A stretch of 40,368 bases of DNA from NCBI GenBank assembly GCA_011090425.1, contig PHGD01000031.1, positions 1 through 40,368 on the forward strand, written 5' to 3'. The position numbers were made by a program, and so were the translations under genes. This document shows positions 25,906 through 34,933 of the stretch, in pieces. The stretch comes from Nitrospira sp. LK70 (lineage in GTDB: Bacteria; Nitrospirota; Nitrospiria; Nitrospirales; Nitrospiraceae). Position 1 is the first letter of the stretch. Each line of letters starts with the position of its first letter. Below the pieces are notes generated by a model. The model was not told the origin of the DNA. It saw nothing but the letters and a program-made list of their open reading frames with translations, and ran no database searches.

Positions 25906-26640
25906 TCAACAAGAGTTGAGATGAGGAGTCGTCCTCTCGCGGTCAGGTTTGATCGGTTCAATGAGTCTCGATGGGTAAGGTGCCCCTGAGCCTCTAAAGC
26001 TCCCGGCATAGATGGCCGCAATCTGGGATCGGCGCCCGATATTCAGTTTCGAATAGATATTCGCAAGATAGTTCTTAACGGTCTTTTCGCTTAACCGCAG
26101 ATCATGGGCGATCTCTTTGTTCGTCAGGCCCTTGGCCACCAACGGCAGAAGGCGTTGCTCCTGTGGAGTAAGAACAGATCGTTTTGATTGTCCCAGTTCA
26201 CTGTACATATTACTCAGCCAATCCGCGGTCTGTTTCGTCAAGCGAGGATCGATAAGCGTTTCGCCGGAGACTACGGTCCGAATGGCACGGATCAGAGCAT
26301 CGGACGCAATGTCCTTCAGAATGTAGCCCTGAGCGCCGGAAAGAACAGCCTCGATCACGGTATGGTCGTCGGCAAAGCTCGTCAAAAACAATATGCGAGT
26401 CTTGGAGCACTTCGCGAGAATCTCACGCGCGGCATCCACTCCGCTGCCGTCCGGCAGTCGAATATCCAGTAATACGAGATCCGGCTTAAGGCGATAACAG
26501 AGTTGCTTCGCCTCTTCCATCCGCCCACCTTGCCCCACAACCTTCATCCCGGGCGTCAAATTGAGAACCGCACAGAGTCCGATGCGCACGACCTCATGAT
26601 CGTCCACAAGGACGAGCCGAATGGTTCTGGACCTATTCAT
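25906..26640 (-). CDS. NarL/FixJ-type response regulator
   Basis: A 244-residue regulator with every receiver residue in place: [10 protein letters not shown], phosphoacceptor in [13 protein letters not shown], Thr in LFLTSFADD and Lys in GYILKD. The LuxR-type HTH (about 155-212) reads [24 protein letters not shown] and [15 protein letters not shown] Pro/Arg-rich tail of about 25 residues follows. The ATG overlaps the end of the kinase gene by 8 bases, so the kinase is transcribed first and the two are coupled. Confidence 0.92.
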
Positions 26641-29287
26641 ACACAGTTCCCTTCTTCAGCGGAACATCGACCAGGACCGTGGTCCCCTTCCCCGGTAGGC
26701 TCTCCAGCGTGAAGGCGGCGGAGATTTGCTTGGCTCGGGCGGCCATATTGTCTAATCCATTACCGCCTCGTCGTTTGCGATTGGAGGAAAATCCGACCCC
26801 GTTGTCGCCGACGATCAACTGGATCGTGTTATCCGCCAGCCTGAGTCGAACCCACCGACGGGACGCGTCGGCATGACGAGTGCTGTTGCTGAGAGCTTCT
26901 CGTACGATATTGAGTAACTGCTCTCCCAGCTGGGGAGTGATGAAGGACAGGACCGGGTTTGTGATGTCCAGTTCAGGTGCGGCTTGGCCGGTGCTCGTCA
27001 TCGAGGCGATGAGCAGCCCGAGAGCCTGCCCAAAATCCGGCTCCTTGGTGGTGCGGTGCGTCAGCAAAGCAATGAACCGCCGAACATCGAGCATGAGGTT
27101 ATTCAGTTGGTCAACGGCTTGCGTCATATGGATTTTGGATTGCCGGGATGATTTCCTCAATGCCAGCTTGCCGGCTTCCAACTGCATACCGACGGCGTAG
27201 AGAGCTTGTAAAATATTGTCGTGCAGGTCTCGACTCAAGTGCTCACGTTCCTCCATCGCCAGTTTGCGCTCGGTAATGTCCTGAACCGCGGCAAGAAGAA
27301 GAGGCCCGACATGGCCTGTTAGCTCAACGGGATTTGCTTTGACTGAGACCCAAATAATTTCACCGGACTTACGAATGTATCGCTTCTCGTAGGTATATTC
27401 CGATCGAATCCCACGAAAAAATTCGTCCGTCAGCACAATGTTGGCGGAAAGATCTTCCGGGTGTGTATACAACGCATAGGTACTGCCGATAAGTTCATGT
27501 TCTTCATATCCCGTCAGCTCACACAAGGCTTTGTTGACGCTGACCAGTCGCAAGTTTTCATCGAGGATACCGAGGCCGACCGGGGCTTCGGCCACGAAGC
27601 GCTGAAGCCTACGCTCGCTCGCGCGTAAGGCTTCCTCGGCGCGTCTGTGTTCGGTGACATCTCGGAAACTCCAGACGCGGCCGACGATCTCATCATCGAG
27701 AACCTGCGGCCGAGAATAGCGCTCGAAGACCCGTCCGTCCTTGAAGTCAAGGACATCGAAGCTCTCTTGTTCCGGGTTCTCGTAAAGCTCTCGAACCTTG
27801 CACAGGAACGCATCGGGATCTTGCAGTTGATCCAAGACAAACTTCAGCAACGCCTCATCATCTCGGCAGTCGGCCAGGGACTGCGGAATATTCCACAAAT
27901 GTAAGAAACGTTGGTTGGCGCTGGTCACCTTGCCCTGACGATCTATCACGAGCAGTCCGTCCGCGACCGAATTCATGGCGGCTTCGAGCAGTGAATAGGA
28001 ACGTTTGCGATCGGAGATGTCGCGCACGATGCACCCGACCGTGGCGCGATCCGGCCCGTTTCCCGGAATAGACGTCAGAATCCCGGAAAAATACCGTACC
28101 TCCCCACCCAACGACACCGTATAGTCAATGGTCGCTGCTTCGCCTGTCGTCATGACGCGACGAATCGTTTCAAGATAGTGGGAACCTGTCTCGGGACCAA
28201 AGATATCGGTCAATTGCTTGCCGACCAGATCCTGCTTCGGCAGCAGCAGTTTGTCTTCATTGCGGGTCCACACATTGAGATATCGTCCGTTCTCATCGAA
28301 TTCAAAGGCGAGGTCGTCCAGGGCGTCCAGAAATGAGCGGAATCGGGCTTCGCTCTTGATCTTGGCTTCCTCGGCCCGCTTCAGGTCCGACTGATCCACA
28401 TAGATACCGACGGCGCCCGAGACCTGCTTGAACTCGTCATAGATAAAAACGGGCCAGAGGAGGAGGTCGAGCATGACACCGTCTTTGCGCCGGCGTTTCA
28501 GCTCGATAGGGCCGGCCAACTTTCCGCGAGTGCCCGCTTGCCACAGTGTATCGGCGGCTGCCTCTTCGCCAGGCTGAATATAGGGGAGTTCGCACCCCAA
28601 TACTTCCCCTTCCGACCAGCCGAATAGGCGTGTCGCGGCCTGATTCCAGCTGGTCACGCGTCCGTCTCGATCAAGGCTGACGAGCGGGAGCGCTGATTCT
28701 CTGATGAGGGTACGGAGCAGGCCTGAGGTTTGGTCGAGCTGATTGTCCATCAACCTGCGCTCCGTGATGTCTTCGCAGACCACCAGAACGAGGATGTGGT
28801 CTGTCTGGTCATGAATTGCGCGCGTTTGTTCTCTGACCCACAGCCTGGCTCCGTCCTTCCGGATCATTTGACCTTCCCGTTGAAAGAGCTGGTAGGGACT
28901 CTCGGCACAGTCCTTCAGATGTGTCAGCACGGTTTGTTGGTCACGTGAATCACACAGTTCCACGATAGATCGGCCGATCAGGTCCTCCTTCAGGTATCCC
29001 AGACGATCAGCTCCCAGGCGGTTTACGGATAGCACGATGCCGTCGGTGGTGAGGGCAAAACACATGCAGGGGTTCTGCTCATAGAGCGACCGGTATTGCT
29101 GCTCGCTGGCCTTGAGCGTGGATTCAGCCTGTTGCCGCAGTTCGATTTCTTGCTTGAGTTCGCCGACGGCTCTTTCCAACGTTTGGCATGCCGAGATATG
29201 TTCTGAAATACGGTTGCGTTCGACGTCGGCCAACGCCTGCTGCAATTCGAAAACCTGGCGGCGGAGGTCACCAAGGTCGGTTGACAT
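26633..29287 (-). CDS. Multi-PAS NarL-type sensor histidine kinase
   Basis: About 884 residues from the ATG at 29287 (GAGAG 4 bases upstream); an earlier ATG at 29317 is possible but has no ribosome site. A short coiled coil (about 10-60) leads into five PAS domains: [64 protein letters not shown] and [16 protein letters not shown]. Each ends in a D(I/V)(T/S) type junction. HisKA_3 then has its His in [16 protein letters not shown], and HATPase has N box [12 protein letters not shown] and G1 DNGVGF. There are no membrane helices. The regulator partner overlaps its 3' end. Confidence 0.9.
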
Positions 29288-29499
29288 TGAGCTCTCGGTA
29301 CCCAGCGGCACAGTCATCGAGAAGAGCCTAGGTGTTACGCATGGGGAAGCTATAAGGCCAGTCCGCTTCCTGTCACTGGTGAGTTTATCGTGAGTGGGTA
29401 GTATAGAACCAGCGGGTCTACCGATGCTAGAGGAGAGGTCTCGGTCAGGAGGTATTACGAAGGCGGAAGCACCAAGGGCACGAGCAGGTTACAAAAGCC

Positions 29500-30180
29500 C
29501 TAAAAGCTTTGACCTCGTGCAGCACCTGGCGCCTGCGCCTCTTTCATGAACCAGGCGACGGCTTCCGTGCGACGCTTGACATGAAGTTTATCAAAAATAT
29601 TGGCCAGATAGTTTTTCACGGTTTTGTCGCTCAAGCGAAGGTGGACGGCGATCTCCTTATTTGTTTTGCCTTCAGCCAGAAGCGGCAGGATCAAACGCTC
29701 TTGCGGAGACAGTCGGGAAGTCCCATTGGAGGCCTCTCCAAGGTGTGAACTGGTCCGAATCCAGTGCAGAGCCTGCTGGGTGACTCGCGGATCGAGATAA
29801 CCATGGCCTCCCGCAACGGTACGAATGGCACGAATCAGGTCATCCATCCTGACATCCTTGAGGACATATCCGTGGGCACCGTTCTGGACTGCTGCCATCA
29901 CCGTGGAATCTTCAGCGTAACTGGTGAGGACGAGAATCCGAAGTTTGGGTACAACTGCCAGAAGCCGTCGACAGGCCTCGGTCACCGAAGCGTCAGGAAG
30001 CTTCACGTCGAGTAGCACCATGTGGGGGATCAGACGTTCAACGAGCGCCACGCCTGCCGCCACGGTTCCTGCCTCTCCGACGATCGTCAGATCCGGTTCG
30101 AGATGAAGCAGCGCACGTAGCCCTCTGCGGACCATCTCATGGTCGTCAATAAGCACGATGCTGGTCTGTGATTGTTTCAT
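29500..30180 (-). CDS. NarL/FixJ-type response regulator, partner of the lux-box-controlled kinase
   Basis: 226 residues. Receiver: IVLIDDHEMV, phosphoacceptor in MVLLDVKLPDAS, Thr in LVLTSYAED, Lys in GYVLKD, all functional. HTH about 155-212 ([38 protein letters not shown]). Closely similar to the regulator at 25906-26640, so the two kinase/regulator pairs look like duplicates that diverged in their sensors. It begins 9 bases after the kinase stop and would be transcribed with it from the promoter near 31085-31130. Confidence 0.92.
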   Translation of the reverse strand: MKQSQTSIVLIDDHEMVRRGLRALLHLEPDLTIVGEAGTVAAGVALVERLIPHMVLLDVKLPDASVTEACRRLLAVVPKLRILVLTSYAEDSTVMAAVQNGAHGYVLKDVRMDDLIRAIRTVAGGHGYLDPRVTQQALHWIRTSSHLGEASNGTSRLSPQERLILPLLAEGKTNKEIAVHLRLSDKTVKNYLANIFDKLHVKRRTEAVAWFMKEAQAPGAARGQSF

Positions 30181-30189
30181 CTGGACACC

Positions 30190-30996
30190 TCATACGGACA
30201 CTAGAAGTGGTTCCAAAGAAAACTCTGCGATGACTTGTGTGCCCTCTCCGACTTTGGACTGGACCGTCAACGTCCCACCGAGTCGTTTTGCTCGAGCCTC
30301 CATATTGGCCAGCCCATATCCTCGTGGCTGTCCGTCCACCGTCGAAAACCCGATGCCATCATCAAGGATACTCACCCGAATTCTGGCTCCTCGCATGCGA
30401 AGCGAGACAATGACCTCTGTTGCGTGGGCATGGCGGACGCTGTTACTGATGGCTTCCCGCACGATATTCAGAATCTCTCGCTCTTCCTCATTCGTGAGGA
30501 CATCAATGGCGCCGCGTTGGAGATCCAGCCGTACGTGCAGCCGTCCTGTTTGCTCATAGGTTGCGCACAAAGCGGCGAGCTCTGACGACAAGTCAAACAC
30601 CTGGACGCTTCCCGATTCCAACTCTCGAATCATCCCACGGACCTCATGAATCAGCTGATTGAGCTGGAGGATGATCTGGTCGTCGGCCTCGGTCGCTTCC
30701 GCCGTTTGTTGGTTCCTCCGGGCCCGTTGATCCGTTCCAATGTTCAAGCCGATGGCATACAACGACTGCAGGACGCAATCATGGAGATCTCGACCGATAC
30801 GGGTGCGATCTTCCAGGAGCGTGTTCAAGCGGCTTTCGGTCGCTTGTATCGCGGTCGTCAACTCACCTGCACAAGGCTTTAGCTGGTGCAGGTCCAACGA
30901 TGCTTCCGCCGGTCGGACCGACGTGGTCGCTGAAACTGCAGAGGTCGATCGACGTCTACCATGCAACAATCGAAGCCGTGTCCTACCCTCTCTCAT
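30190..30996 (-). CDS. Short NarL-type histidine kinase without a recognised sensor domain
   Basis: 268 residues. About 75 N-terminal residues, basic then weakly helical, lead into the HisKA_3 helix with phosphoacceptor His in RTRIGRDLHDCVLQSL, then HATPase with N box EAISNSVRHAHA, G1 DDGIGF and G2 GYGLANM. There is no PAS, GAF or membrane helix, so input may come from a partner protein or from expression level. AAGGAGGT lies 5 bases before the ATG. The upstream region holds a lux-type dyad at 31113-31130, suggesting that quorum sensing controls the gene. Confidence 0.88.
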   Translation of the reverse strand: MREGRTRLRLLHGRRRSTSAVSATTSVRPAEASLDLHQLKPCAGELTTAIQATESRLNTLLEDRTRIGRDLHDCVLQSLYAIGLNIGTDQRARRNQQTAEATEADDQIILQLNQLIHEVRGMIRELESGSVQVFDLSSELAALCATYEQTGRLHVRLDLQRGAIDVLTNEEEREILNIVREAISNSVRHAHATEVIVSLRMRGARIRVSILDDGIGFSTVDGQPRGYGLANMEARAKRLGGTLTVQSKVGEGTQVIAEFSLEPLLVSV

Positions 30997-31012
30997 AACG
31001 TACCTCCTTGGT

Positions 31013-31042
31013 TCCCGATCTTCTTGGATCCCGATCTTCTTG
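31013..31042. repeat. 14-bp direct repeat in the kinase leader
   Basis: TCCCGATCTTCTTG occurs at 31013-31026 and again at 31029-31042, a period of 16. It lies in the expected untranslated leader of the minus-strand kinase. A recent tandem duplication or a binding site for a small RNA or protein are both possible. Confidence 0.5.
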
Positions 31043-31084
31043 TTTGAGCGTTACGAAGCCAAACCACCCTTGATGTCGCTTGGA

Positions 31085-31130
31085 TATTTAGTCCATCGCC
31101 GACTGGAAATCACCTGGCGGATCCGCCAGG
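31085..31130 (-). promoter_or_regulatory. Lux-type operator and promoter of the kinase/regulator pair
   Basis: CCTGGC-GGATCC-GCCAGG at 31113-31130 is a perfect 18-bp palindrome. It fits the CT-N12-AG pattern of LuxR/LasR-family sites and shares both arms with two dyads upstream of luxI. On the minus strand a -10-like TAAATA (31090-31085) puts the operator centre at about -42.5 from the predicted start. That is the spacing of the Vibrio fischeri lux box, where the activator replaces the -35 contact. A good -35 box is indeed absent. Binding by the LuxR at 32489-33313 is inferred. Confidence 0.6.
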
Positions 31131-31376
31131 GGGTGGCCGGCGGCACTTCATAATTCATCGGCACTTGGCTTCAACGTCGCAGGCTGAAAGATTCCTTGAT
31201 AGGTCGAACAGACCGGGAGGGGGAGAGTCCTGCTGAGGATCGAAGTTCACCGTCCGACAATTGAAGACCGGACTTGCCATCTGTCACGCCACCACCCACC
31301 TCTCACCTCCTCAATGTTTCCTCAAAAAAACAGACTCATCTCAAATTGAACGATCAGTACTTGCTTCAAGGCGACA

Positions 31377-31403
31377 AGTAAAACGCCTGGCGTATAAGCC
31401 AGT
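31377..31403 (+). promoter_or_regulatory. Lux-type operator, distal copy upstream of luxI
   Basis: CCTGGC-GTATAA-GCCAGT at 31386-31403, preceded by AGTAAAAC and one base. The same AGTAAAAC-N-CCTGGC arrangement recurs 155 bases downstream at 31532. The centre lies about 283 bases before the luxI ATG. Confidence 0.55.
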
Positions 31404-31407
31404 AAAT

Positions 31408-31428
31408 TACTAGATATATAAGCTAGTA
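31408..31428. promoter_or_regulatory. Dyad TACTAG-N9-CTAGTA
   Basis: Perfect 6-bp arms around the A/T-rich spacer ATATATAAG, 4 bases after the distal lux-type dyad. It may be a second operator or contain a -10 element. CTAGTA recurs at 31443 and 31530. Confidence 0.4.
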
Positions 31429-31493
31429 CAGGCTGCATCCATCTAGTACGTCAGCATTTGCACTTCATATCATCGTTCAAAAATCGGCCTGAT

Positions 31494-31516
31494 CAGGTAC
31501 GAATGTCCAGTACCTG
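31494..31516. promoter_or_regulatory. Dyad CAGGTAC-N9-GTACCTG
   Basis: Perfect 7-bp arms around a 9-base spacer, 25 bases before the proximal lux-type dyad. The right arm runs into CCTGTAGGG, which resembles half of the Vibrio lux box. Its role is unknown; a second regulator or a variant receptor site would fit. Confidence 0.45.
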
Positions 31517-31531
31517 TAGGGTGCAATGACT

Positions 31532-31558
31532 AGTAAAACCCCTGGCTGACACGCCAGG
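31532..31558 (+). promoter_or_regulatory. Lux-type operator, proximal copy upstream of luxI
   Basis: CCTGGC-TGACAC-GCCAGG at 31541-31558, perfect arms, preceded by AGTAAAAC at the same distance as in the distal copy. AACTAT at 31581-31586 lies where a -10 box would fall if the geometry matched that of the kinase promoter. This suggests autoinduction of luxI. Confidence 0.6.
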
Positions 31559-31677
31559 TGACCTATTGCTCCTGAAATGAAACTATCTGGCCCCATCGAA
31601 ACAAACCATCCCGAATGACCCTATGTCCGCAAATTAATGGGGTTTATATCGGGCCCTTACACAAAAAGGAGGTCCCC

Positions 31678-32433
31678 ATGCAAGCCACAGCAGTCGGAGA
31701 GGAAAGAGGAATCGCGTTCTACGAAGGAGAGTTTTTCGTCAAGACACTCGAAACAAAAGAAGAGATGACCCAGGCCTATCGGCTACGACATCGCGTATTC
31801 GCTGAACGGTTGAAGTGGGTACCGGAACAGGCCAACCGACTCGAAGCCGATCTGTACGATGCGTGGAGTACTTCAATCGGGGTATTTGCGGATGAAACCA
31901 GATTGCTGGGATTGGTCCGCATGACCCATGCACCTGTCCCGTTCATGTTGGAGAGCGAATTCAGCGCCTGTCTTGTGGGGAGTCACCGGGTTCGAAAGGA
32001 AACCGATACGGCGGAAATTACTCGACTGGCCGTTGATCCAGCGATCGCGGATCGTGGTCTTTCGGCAAGACTGATGAAAACCATCTTCAAGGGCATGTAT
32101 CAATGGTGTCTGCTTCATGAAGTCCGCTACACCTATATGGTGGTGGAGCACAGGCTCTTGCGGGTGGTCCAGCGCATGGGATGGCCATGCCGGGCCATAG
32201 GTGAACCGGTAGCATTACCACCGGCCGAGGTTCTTTCTATCGGAGGGTTACTCGATCTGGAAGAATTTCGCGTGCAAGCTTCAACGGATCGTCCCAGCAT
32301 GCTCGACTGGCTCACAACAACGAAGCCGGTCACCAGCCCGGCACACCTACCGTCCCTAAGAACCGGCCAGGAAAGTGATATGGGGGAATATGCCGAATTG
32401 GCAGACGATCGGCTTCTGGTACGCGCCGCCTAG
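31678..32433 (+). CDS. luxI: LuxI-type acyl-homoserine-lactone synthase
   Basis: 251 residues from the ATG at 31678, chosen because AAGGAGGT stands 4 bases upstream; an earlier ATG at 31615 has none. The family's invariant residues are all visible: R37, F41 and W47 (RLRHRVFAERLKW), D58 and D61 (EADLYD), R81 (GLVRMT), F89, E113 and R116 (TAEITRLAVD). It would join an acyl-ACP or acyl-CoA chain to SAM to make an AHL signal; chain length cannot be read. The C-terminus is some 40 residues longer than classic LuxI. A long upstream region carries two lux-type dyads. Its stop faces the luxR stop 55 bases away. Confidence 0.93.
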   Translation: MQATAVGEERGIAFYEGEFFVKTLETKEEMTQAYRLRHRVFAERLKWVPEQANRLEADLYDAWSTSIGVFADETRLLGLVRMTHAPVPFMLESEFSACLVGSHRVRKETDTAEITRLAVDPAIADRGLSARLMKTIFKGMYQWCLLHEVRYTYMVVEHRLLRVVQRMGWPCRAIGEPVALPPAEVLSIGGLLDLEEFRVQASTDRPSMLDWLTTTKPVTSPAHLPSLRTGQESDMGEYAELADDRLLVRAA

Positions 32434-32488: not shown

Positions 32489-33313
32489 TCATGCTTGGGA
32501 GGCGGCTGGCAACCCATGAATGGCTGGTAGCCCATGTTCTATGGCGGTCGCAACGGCCTGAGAGCGGGAGGTCACCTCGAGCTTGGAAAAGATGCCCTCG
32601 ATGTGGAATCGTACGGTTCGTTCACTGACTCCGAGAATCTTGCCGATCTCCCAATTGGTCTTTCCGTTCTTCATCCAATTGAGAATCGTGACTTCTCGAG
32701 AAGAAAGCTCTTTGACGCATCGATTCGTTACCGGCACCGATTTCGGCGCGGTTCTGAGCAGAGCCATATGGATGTAATATCCGATGTATTCGACGATGGG
32801 CATCACTCGCTTCGCATCGAGCGACTGCTCGCTGGCAAACGAACAAAACGTGGCGACTCCACAGGCCTGATCGACGGAGCCCGTGGTGATGCCGTCACAG
32901 AGACCGAATCGACGCGCGGTGACGATAAACTCCTGCTCCTTTTCGGAGGACATGTCCTGATAGATCTCTTGCCAATGTTGCGTGCCTGGTGATTTCAAGG
33001 CTGACTTGAACACCGGGTCGACCTCCGCAAACCCGTTTTTCCAGTACATATAGAGCCAGTCATCCGGATAACTGGCGTTGACGACATTACTGAAGCCTGC
33101 AAATGTCCGATTTGGTCCAAGGCGAACGAGTCCCCCAAGCGCTCTGGTAAAGGAGAAATGATTCTGGAATCGAATAAGCACGTCCCGCACGTCATCAGGA
33201 GTCTCAACCTGCATCACGAAGTGAAGAATCTCCATGAAGTTCCGGCAGTCGGTCTTGGAGAGGGTATCGAACGTCTTGTGCGGGAAAGGTAGTCTCGTCG
33301 GTGTATGAGTCAT
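32489..33313 (-). CDS. luxR: LuxR-type autoinducer-binding transcription factor
   Basis: 274 residues; GGAGG lies 7 bases before the ATG. The AHL-binding domain keeps the diagnostic residues in TraR/LuxR spacing: W86 and Y90 (DDWLYMYW), D99-P100 (AEVDPV), W114 (QHWQEIY) and G141 (LCDGITTGS). The C-terminal HTH (about 205-262) has SSREVTILNWMKNGKTNWEIGKIL and RTVRFHIEGIFSKL. It should bind the AHL made by the neighbouring LuxI and then DNA, most likely the CCTGGC-N6-GCCAGG dyads. Unlike the island's other LuxR-HTH proteins, it has no receiver domain. It diverges from the fadL-like gene. Confidence 0.92.
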   Translation of the reverse strand: MTHTPTRLPFPHKTFDTLSKTDCRNFMEILHFVMQVETPDDVRDVLIRFQNHFSFTRALGGLVRLGPNRTFAGFSNVVNASYPDDWLYMYWKNGFAEVDPVFKSALKSPGTQHWQEIYQDMSSEKEQEFIVTARRFGLCDGITTGSVDQACGVATFCSFASEQSLDAKRVMPIVEYIGYYIHMALLRTAPKSVPVTNRCVKELSSREVTILNWMKNGKTNWEIGKILGVSERTVRFHIEGIFSKLEVTSRSQAVATAIEHGLPAIHGLPAASQA

Positions 33314-33380
33314 CGGAGAACCTCCAGAGCTGACAACACAAGTAAAACATACTACACAATCAAGTCAAGAATCACGACAA

Positions 33381-33394: not shown

Positions 33395-33547
33395 CGTCCC
33401 AGTTTTAGACTAGAGCTAATCGCCTCTATACCTGAGACCTATTCCACCATTACACTGAACATCGAATGACACGTGTTGACGAGGATCACAGCCGGACATT
33501 GCAGCCGTTTCTCAGGTGGGAGACACGTTTTGGAGAGGGCTCACACT

Positions 33548-34933
33548 GTGACGCATTCATGGTATCTCGGCAGAGGTATCGTCATCGTCATCGTCATCGT
33601 CATCCTCTTGCGTTGTCTCGTGGAGCCGACGGGTGTCGAAGCTCAGGCGCTTCGCTTTCAGCCTCAAGGAGCACGCGCCGCAGGACAGGGGAATGCCTTT
33701 GCGGCCCAGGCCGATGATGCATCAGCAATCCACTACAACCCCGCCGGTTTGGCCCAAGTAGAAGGCATTCAAACCGTGTTCGGCTCCGCTGCGGTCGGCG
33801 GCTCGGTTGAATACCAGAGCCGCACCGGTGTTGACAGTCGCGGCGATTTCAACGGCAGCGTGAACTGGCCGCCTCCAAGCCACTTTTATCTCAGCGCCGA
33901 CCTCTCCTCGGTCAGATTGCCCATTCTTTCCTCCGTGACTGTCGGAATTGGGCTGACTTCGCCGTTCGGCTCAAATGTGAGCTACCCGGTCGATGGTCCT
34001 TTCAACACGGCTGTAACCTCGGCTGCGCTGCCGTTGATTGATATCAAGCCAACCGTCGCGTACAGAGTGACCAAAAATCTGTCGGTCGGTGTGGGCGTCG
34101 ATATCTATACATTTGCGAGCTTTCTTGGTGAAGGCCATGTGGAACAGAAACTGGTGAGCTCCGGAGCCTTGGGAATCCCGGCCGGATCGTCTATGGAACT
34201 GAACGGAACCGGAACCGGCGCCGGTGTAAAGGCCAGCCTGCTCTATACGCCTGTGAGAAACGGAGACGGTCGACCAATCGTCTCCCTCGGGTTCGTCTAT
34301 CGCTCGCAGGCCGTCGTGCCCTTGAAGGGGTCTCTGGTGGTCAACGGAGCCAAGATCGCCGACGCTTCCACCGATCTAGTGCTGCCGCAAATCTTTACTG
34401 GCGCTGTGGCTGTTTGGCCGGTGCGTACAAGCAACAGGGAGTGGAAGGTGGAACTCGATATCGAGTATGTGGGATGGAGTTCAAACAAGAATTTGGACGT
34501 ATACCTTTCGAATGGAGCAACGTTTCCACAGCCTCAAGATTGGAAGGATGTACCGGTCATCGCACTTGGAACCGAGTACCGATGGCTGAATCCTGCCTGG
34601 CTGCCTCACTGGGAGATAGCCGTTCGGTCCGGGTATACGTACACGGATGATCCTGTTCCCGATCGGACCTTCAATCCTGCCACCATTTCCTTGCCGGCTC
34701 ATACCCTCTCTCTTGGCACCGGCTTTCTCTGCAAGGGCACAGGGCGATTACTGGGGATAATTCCCTGCAGCGGACAGTCACCTCTTTGGCCGAAGGGCAT
34801 CGGGCTGGACCTAGCCTACCAGGAGTGGTTCTACGAATCACGCACCGTTGTCGACAATCTGAATCCGACCGTCAATGGGACGTACCATGCATCCGTACAC
34901 CTAGGGACGTTCAGCTTCCTCACTCTATTCTAG
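33548..34933 (+). CDS. FadL/OmpP1-type outer-membrane hydrophobic-compound channel
   Basis: About 461 residues from GTG 33548 (GGAGAGG 10 bases upstream); the frame extends to 33473 without a ribosome site. A signal peptide with an unusual core of alternating Ile-Val (encoded by a hexanucleotide repeat) probably ends at VEAQA. The mature N-terminus has the FadL hatch signature GARAAGQGNAFAAQADDASAIHYNPAGLA, followed by alternating beta-strands and a terminal aromatic (FSFLTLF) suited to outer-membrane assembly. The family imports long-chain fatty acids and other hydrophobic molecules. Divergence from luxR raises the possibility that it handles AHL or its precursors. Confidence 0.88.
   Translation: MTHSWYLGRGIVIVIVIVILLRCLVEPTGVEAQALRFQPQGARAAGQGNAFAAQADDASAIHYNPAGLAQVEGIQTVFGSAAVGGSVEYQSRTGVDSRGDFNGSVNWPPPSHFYLSADLSSVRLPILSSVTVGIGLTSPFGSNVSYPVDGPFNTAVTSAALPLIDIKPTVAYRVTKNLSVGVGVDIYTFASFLGEGHVEQKLVSSGALGIPAGSSMELNGTGTGAGVKASLLYTPVRNGDGRPIVSLGFVYRSQAVVPLKGSLVVNGAKIADASTDLVLPQIFTGAVAVWPVRTSNREWKVELDIEYVGWSSNKNLDVYLSNGATFPQPQDWKDVPVIALGTEYRWLNPAWLPHWEIAVRSGYTYTDDPVPDRTFNPATISLPAHTLSLGTGFLCKGTGRLLGIIPCSGQSPLWPKGIGLDLAYQEWFYESRTVVDNLNPTVNGTYHASVHLGTFSFLTLF
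33581..33604 (+). repeat. (GTCATC)4 repeat in the FadL signal sequence
   Basis: Four perfect copies of GTCATC, preceded by a degenerate GTATC, encode Val-Ile pairs in the signal peptide core. Gain or loss of a unit keeps the frame and changes the hydrophobic core by two residues. Confidence 0.85.

Follow-up and report, generated by a model that had tools for sequence, protein, structure and literature searches.

A putative lux-type operator facing luxI and a divergent two-component system in Nitrospira

Known lux boxes and the luxI locus of the window

The lux box of Vibrio fischeri is a 20-bp dyad centred near position -42.5 of the luxI promoter, where it overlaps the -35 region. The ideal site of CviR of Chromobacterium is quoted as CTGNCCNNNNGGNCAG (PMC12114271). 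From an activated-sludge Nitrospira, 61 predicted lux-box regions were cloned by Tan et al. in 2021; 58 of the 61 predicted boxes were inactive, and two regions responded to C8-HSL with NspR1, a Nitrospira LuxR, without an added sigma factor (PMC8553950). The two responding regions overlap, and what they have in common is ACCTGGCGGTTCCGCCAGGT, located between nspI and a divergent gene; in the reporter it gave 197- and 14-fold activation, dependent on LuxR and C8-HSL, in both directions, and in gel shifts NspR1 plus RNA polymerase shifted this box and not a scrambled one, while NspR1 alone did not bind (PMC8553950).

The window (the whole stretch of DNA analysed here, 40,368 nucleotides from Nitrospira sp. 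LK70) encodes the AHL synthase LuxI (251 aa; 31678..32433, plus strand; Pfam Autoind_synth 81 bits against a cut-off of 24, with matches to the EsaI and LasI structures), which starts at ATG 31678 with AAGGAGG ahead of it. The AHL receptor and regulator LuxR (274 aa; 32489..33313, minus strand) is encoded convergently with luxI, has Autoind_bind (66.4 bits) and GerE (71.8 bits) domains that both score above cut-off, and finds its best solved match in CviR (4.6e-34). Divergent from luxI is the gene of a histidine kinase (268 aa; 30190..30996, minus strand) in which Pfam finds only the kinase domains HisKA_3 and HATPase_c, and adjoining it is the gene of a NarL-type response regulator (226 aa; 29500..30180, minus strand) with Response_reg and GerE domains. 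A second kinase/regulator pair, consisting of an 894-aa multi-PAS kinase and another NarL-type regulator, follows the first (25906-29317, minus strand), and genes related to this second pair follow the first pair in many relatives.

Three copies of the dyad CCTGGC-N6-GCCAG(G/T), which an earlier note on this DNA had placed in the gap between the two-component pair and luxI, are confirmed in the sequence at 31113, 31386 and 31541, as is the length of the gap (681 bp, 30997-31677). Site 1 is the lux-type box ACCTGGCGGATCCGCCAGGG (31112..31131; dyad CCTGGCGGATCCGCCAGG, 31113-31130), 115 bp from the divergent kinase gene; site 2 is GCCTGGCGTATAAGCCAGTA (31385..31404; dyad CCTGGCGTATAAGCCAGT, 31386-31403); and site 3 is the lux-type box CCCTGGCTGACACGCCAGGT (31540..31559; dyad CCTGGCTGACACGCCAGG, 31541-31558), 118 bp upstream of the luxI start. 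All three, as dyads of 18-20 bp, have the CT-N12-AG form claimed for them. No further copy had been noticed in the other intergenic regions read for the earlier note, and scanning the window yields no other place with one mismatch or fewer; at the luxR promoter there is no lux-type box with two mismatches or fewer. Rarity away from promoters also held up: CCTGGC-N6-GCCAGK occurs exactly at five places in the 4.70-Mb genome (201 contigs), three in the gap and two inside ORFs. At the rate of the rest of the genome, 0.0003 copies would be expected in 681 bp, and the probability of at least three is about 4e-12.

The NspR1/NspI locus and the window have boxes of the same family (ACCTGGCGGTTCCGCCAGGT and ACCTGGCGGATCCGCCAGGG, with two mismatches between them) situated between luxI and a divergent gene, and a LuxR of the same genus. 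Because the published box differs from site 1 at two positions only, the binding site is not a new discovery; an operator of this kind, with nearly this sequence, is on record for the genus (PMC8553950). The earlier note's reading, in which the dyad is a lux-type operator used by a Nitrospira LuxI/LuxR pair, is supported by its rarity and by its presence at 62 of 64 luxI loci, but not as a novelty, a Nitrospira LuxR site having been published in 2021 (PMC8553950). What is new is the genus-wide conservation of the box and what appears to be essentially a single switch region facing luxI and a two-component system. The NspR1/NspI locus has one box, whereas the window has two conserved boxes and a probably decayed one; the divergent gene was named GGDEF/EAL in the former (PMC8553950) and is a HisKA_3 kinase gene in the window. 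Another genome (G089, locus L101) carries exactly ACCTGGCGGTTCCGCCAGGT at its luxI locus, at distances slightly different from those published, and there too the divergent gene encodes a HisKA_3 kinase by Pfam.

CviR is the solved LuxR protein nearest to that of the window, with a closely similar DNA-binding domain, and CTGNCCNNNNGGNCAG and the Nitrospira box are both 16-bp CTG...CAG dyads, although Nitrospira has G/C at positions 6 and 11 (CTGGCGNNNNCGCCAG) where the CviR site has C/G, and CviR has several targets. Since the window's LuxR is CviR-like and the ideal CviR site has the same form, the form of the dyad supports a LuxR operator. Like the V. fischeri lux box, the box here is a 20-bp dyad, and it is predicted to overlap the -35 element ahead of luxI; it differs in its arms, in that a two-component operon is faced by boxes as well, and in the convergent arrangement of luxR and luxI.

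Conservation of the box and extent of the regulon

A search for luxI in 79 Nitrospira genomes found it in 62, at 64 loci, and not in the remaining 17. With a box defined as a match of at least 13 of 14 consensus bases upstream of luxI, 62 of the 64 loci have one, so that conservation beside luxI in relatives is borne out across the genus. At one exception (L106) the contig ends 42 bp upstream of luxI; at the other (L138, in G065) luxI adjoins a different kinase gene, the usual kinase pair and the box are both gone while luxR and luxI are kept, and the best remaining match, a weak 10 of 14, falls within the ORF of the neighbouring kinase. An exact copy of the 14-base box occurs in 57 of the 62 luxI-positive and none of the 17 luxI-negative genomes (Fisher 3e-13, a value that is optimistic since the genomes are related), mostly at one place per genome. 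The criterion of 13 of 14 fixes the arms by construction and their conservation is itself no evidence; the evidence from comparing sequences is the presence of the box, its position, the bias of its spacer and the GACG that follows it. The spacers, described in the earlier note as unrelated, have biased inner bases across the genus, giving ACCTGGC-GG(A/G)(T/C)(C/A)C-GCCAGGT in 81 boxes. Throughout the genus, the predicted box is in front of luxI and the neighbouring two-component system and almost nowhere else.

The earlier view of three equivalent operators did not survive this comparison. Sites 1 and 3 each match the genus consensus at 13 of 14 bases and site 2 at 11. In an alignment of the window with its three nearest relatives (G018, G012 and G085, whose LuxI is 90-96% identical in the aligned part), 20 of 20 columns are kept at site 1, 15 of 20 at site 3 and 5 of 20 at site 2, and among the 661 windows of the gap site 1 ranks first and site 2 634th. 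Because traces of half sites remain in the relatives, site 2 is probably a decayed extra copy of the box, which may be weakly functional in the window's genome; it also lacks a -10-like hexamer at the offset shared by the other sites (GTACAG / CAAGTA). The window's clade has two boxes, one per direction, and many relatives have a single box between both genes. Wherever the contig extends far enough, the HisKA_3 kinase and NarL-type regulator accompany luxI, G065 being the one exception; the identity of the regulator in relatives is 63-97% (above 85% in most), and at most loci its conservation exceeds that of LuxI and LuxR. In one genome luxR matches in two separate pieces (G014:C47:65824-66611), perhaps because the gene is broken or the assembly faulty.

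The multi-gene regulon that the earlier note had proposed contracts to one intergenic region, marked by a near-consensus box, that seems to serve both luxI and the kinase operon divergent from it. In the window's genome, scans allowing one or two mismatches gave 65 matches against 95 for the reversed control, and 36 against 48. A wide regulon was rejected as a candidate on these scans and on two-mismatch scans of three close relatives, none of which exceeded the reversed control save that of G018, where a single repeated sequence, ACCTGGCCATCGGGCTAGGG, accounts for many of the matches. Outside the locus, the near-consensus places that were read in their context (all but the last three two-mismatch places) nearly all fall within long ORFs, gyrB among them, and the others read are weak two-mismatch ones such as C104:80014; these consensus scans and readings revealed no convincing intergenic box outside the locus in the window's genome. 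It is unlikely, though deserving of some weight, that many genes are under the control of this LuxR by way of more degenerate boxes, as is usual for LuxR proteins: degenerate sites escape consensus scans, and one genome (G093) has a second perfect box (L143:3001-3020) 32 kb from luxI and 150 bp upstream of an unrelated gene, whose 390-aa product has a lipoprotein-like start and no Pfam match. A scattered regulon of this kind is opposed by match counts that, with one or two mismatches allowed, do not exceed those of the reversed control, by the long ORFs that enclose nearly all of the places read, and by the inactivity of 58 of 61 predicted boxes (PMC8553950), a reporter screen with which our scans are in line in suggesting that genome-wide lux-box predictions in Nitrospira are mostly false matches. 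The pattern of matches is that of essentially a single-region switch, predicted to be aimed at luxI and the two-component system, with weaker sites missed by consensus scans being possible.

Genomes without luxI and the partner of the box

Five luxI-less genomes (G021, G026, G032, G076 and G030; loci L190-L194) have a box of 12-13 of 14 bases between the kinase gene and the gene of a LuxR-like protein of about 180-193 aa, which has a LuxR DNA-binding domain (60-68% identical in luxI-less, box-keeping genomes) and no autoinducer domain. These boxes are not exact 14-base matches and fall outside the count of none in 17. In all five the box precedes the kinase gene, and TATAAT or TATGAT is found 23 bp past it. 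Because five genomes without luxI keep a near-consensus box there, the candidate partner of the box is the kinase pair together with a LuxR-type DNA-binding domain, which the box tracks rather than luxI alone, and the kinase pair looks like its constant target. A ketoacyl synthase gene is also found near the box at all five loci, and a cytochrome P450 gene at L191 and L193. In Nitrospira sp. CR1.3 (L226) the regulator is kept (71%), the kinase is degraded, and luxI, luxR and the box are missing; dapF and uvrC directly adjoin the degraded kinase and the response regulator, in what looks like a locus deletion.

The persistence of the box beside the kinase pair where luxI and an AHL-binding LuxR are absent, together with its loss along with the pair in G065, where luxI and luxR stay, would fit a box that serves as operator not for LuxR but for the NarL-type response regulator next to it, which would thereby regulate itself. 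We regard this as very improbable: in the reporter host the published box needed NspR1 and C8-HSL to act (PMC8553950), genomes in which the box persists without luxI have the protein with the 60-68% identical LuxR DNA-binding domain, CT-N12-AG is the form of LuxR sites, and L226 has the regulator without LuxR or box, though its kinase is also degraded. A broader proposal is possible, if somewhat less likely than its opposite: the lux box in Nitrospira may be primarily part of a conserved two-component operon, LuxR-type regulators (AHL-sensing, or shortened and without a signal domain in luxI-less species) feeding one kinase/regulator pair, and the effect of quorum sensing on other parts of the genome may pass chiefly through this pair.

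Promoter geometry and proposed mechanism

An approximate sigma-70 -10 score was averaged for every offset beyond the box at 45 single-box loci. The best offset was 21 bp in both directions (z 3.1 toward luxI and 3.6 toward the kinase gene), and this peak is present in both LuxI clades; with strict dereplication, an offset of 13 scored slightly above 21 on the luxI side. In the window, the predicted -10 of the kinase promoter is TAAATA (31085..31090, minus strand), 21 bp beyond site 1 and kept in four genomes, with a -35-like GTGATT (31108-31113) that overlaps the edge of the site 1 box. On the luxI side the predicted -10 is AACTAT (31581..31586, plus strand), 21 bp beyond site 3, with a -35-like GTGACC at that site (31558-31563); AACTAT is a poor match, and the -10-like hexamers are weak overall. 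If GTGACC/GTGACG or GTGATT at the box edge is taken as the -35, the spacer is 17 bp and the box centre is predicted near -43, which is close to the -42.5 of class II lux promoters. At sites 1 and 3, then, the -10-like hexamers are predicted to be placed as in LuxR-activated promoters.

It is very probable that the quorum-sensing receptor of Nitrospira binds the repeated palindrome ahead of luxI, and we hold with considerable confidence that the dyad is the operator of the LuxR of the locus, with site 3 driving luxI and site 1 the divergent kinase/regulator operon. The basis for an operator here is sequence, conservation, position and rarity, from which we infer that the window's LuxR binds it and that the kinase operon of this organism is activated, as well as everything downstream. 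Counting against it are G065, which keeps luxI and luxR without the box, the failure of NspR1 to bind without RNA polymerase (PMC8553950), and, on the luxI side, the poor -10 and the competing offset of 13. The AHL-bound LuxR dimer would bind the 20-bp box ACCTGGC-N6-GCCAGGT and activate promoters whose -35 overlaps the box edge. Activation of luxI from site 3 would give positive feedback, and activation of the divergent histidine kinase/NarL-type regulator operon from site 1 would relay cell density to a two-component system that may itself control further genes.

Boxes that overlap promoters can also serve repression, and EsaI is the nearest solved LuxI, but repression by LuxR that is relieved by AHL, as with EsaR, is highly doubtful when the window's LuxR is nearest to CviR, the box position fits activation, and the published reporter was activated by AHL and NspR1 (PMC8553950). 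GC-rich dyads are common, but that the dyads arose by chance, or are a terminator-like repeat with no regulatory function, has next to no probability with 0.0003 copies expected in the gap, no T run following the dyads, and a conservation at luxI across the genus that refutes it.

Nitrospira are major nitrifiers that are hard to grow, and the question is what their AHL signalling controls. The data point to one conserved target, the kinase/NarL-type regulator pair, with exact sites and spacings.

A second motif is present on the minus strand at three places: GTTTTACTTGTC (31373..31384) beside site 2, GTTTTACTAGTC (31528..31539) abutting site 3, and GTTTTACTTGTG (33337..33348) in the luxR 5' region. 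The three exact copies of GTTTTACTWGTS in the 4.7-Mb genome are all at the luxI/luxR locus; GTTTTACTWGT has two exact copies in G018 and three in G012, all at the same locus, and one in G085, elsewhere. GTTTTACTWGTS, a motif picked out after the fact, is possibly a second operator. Divergent from luxR is the gene of a FadL-type outer-membrane transporter (33473-34933, plus strand), which might, as a guess, take up long-chain AHL.
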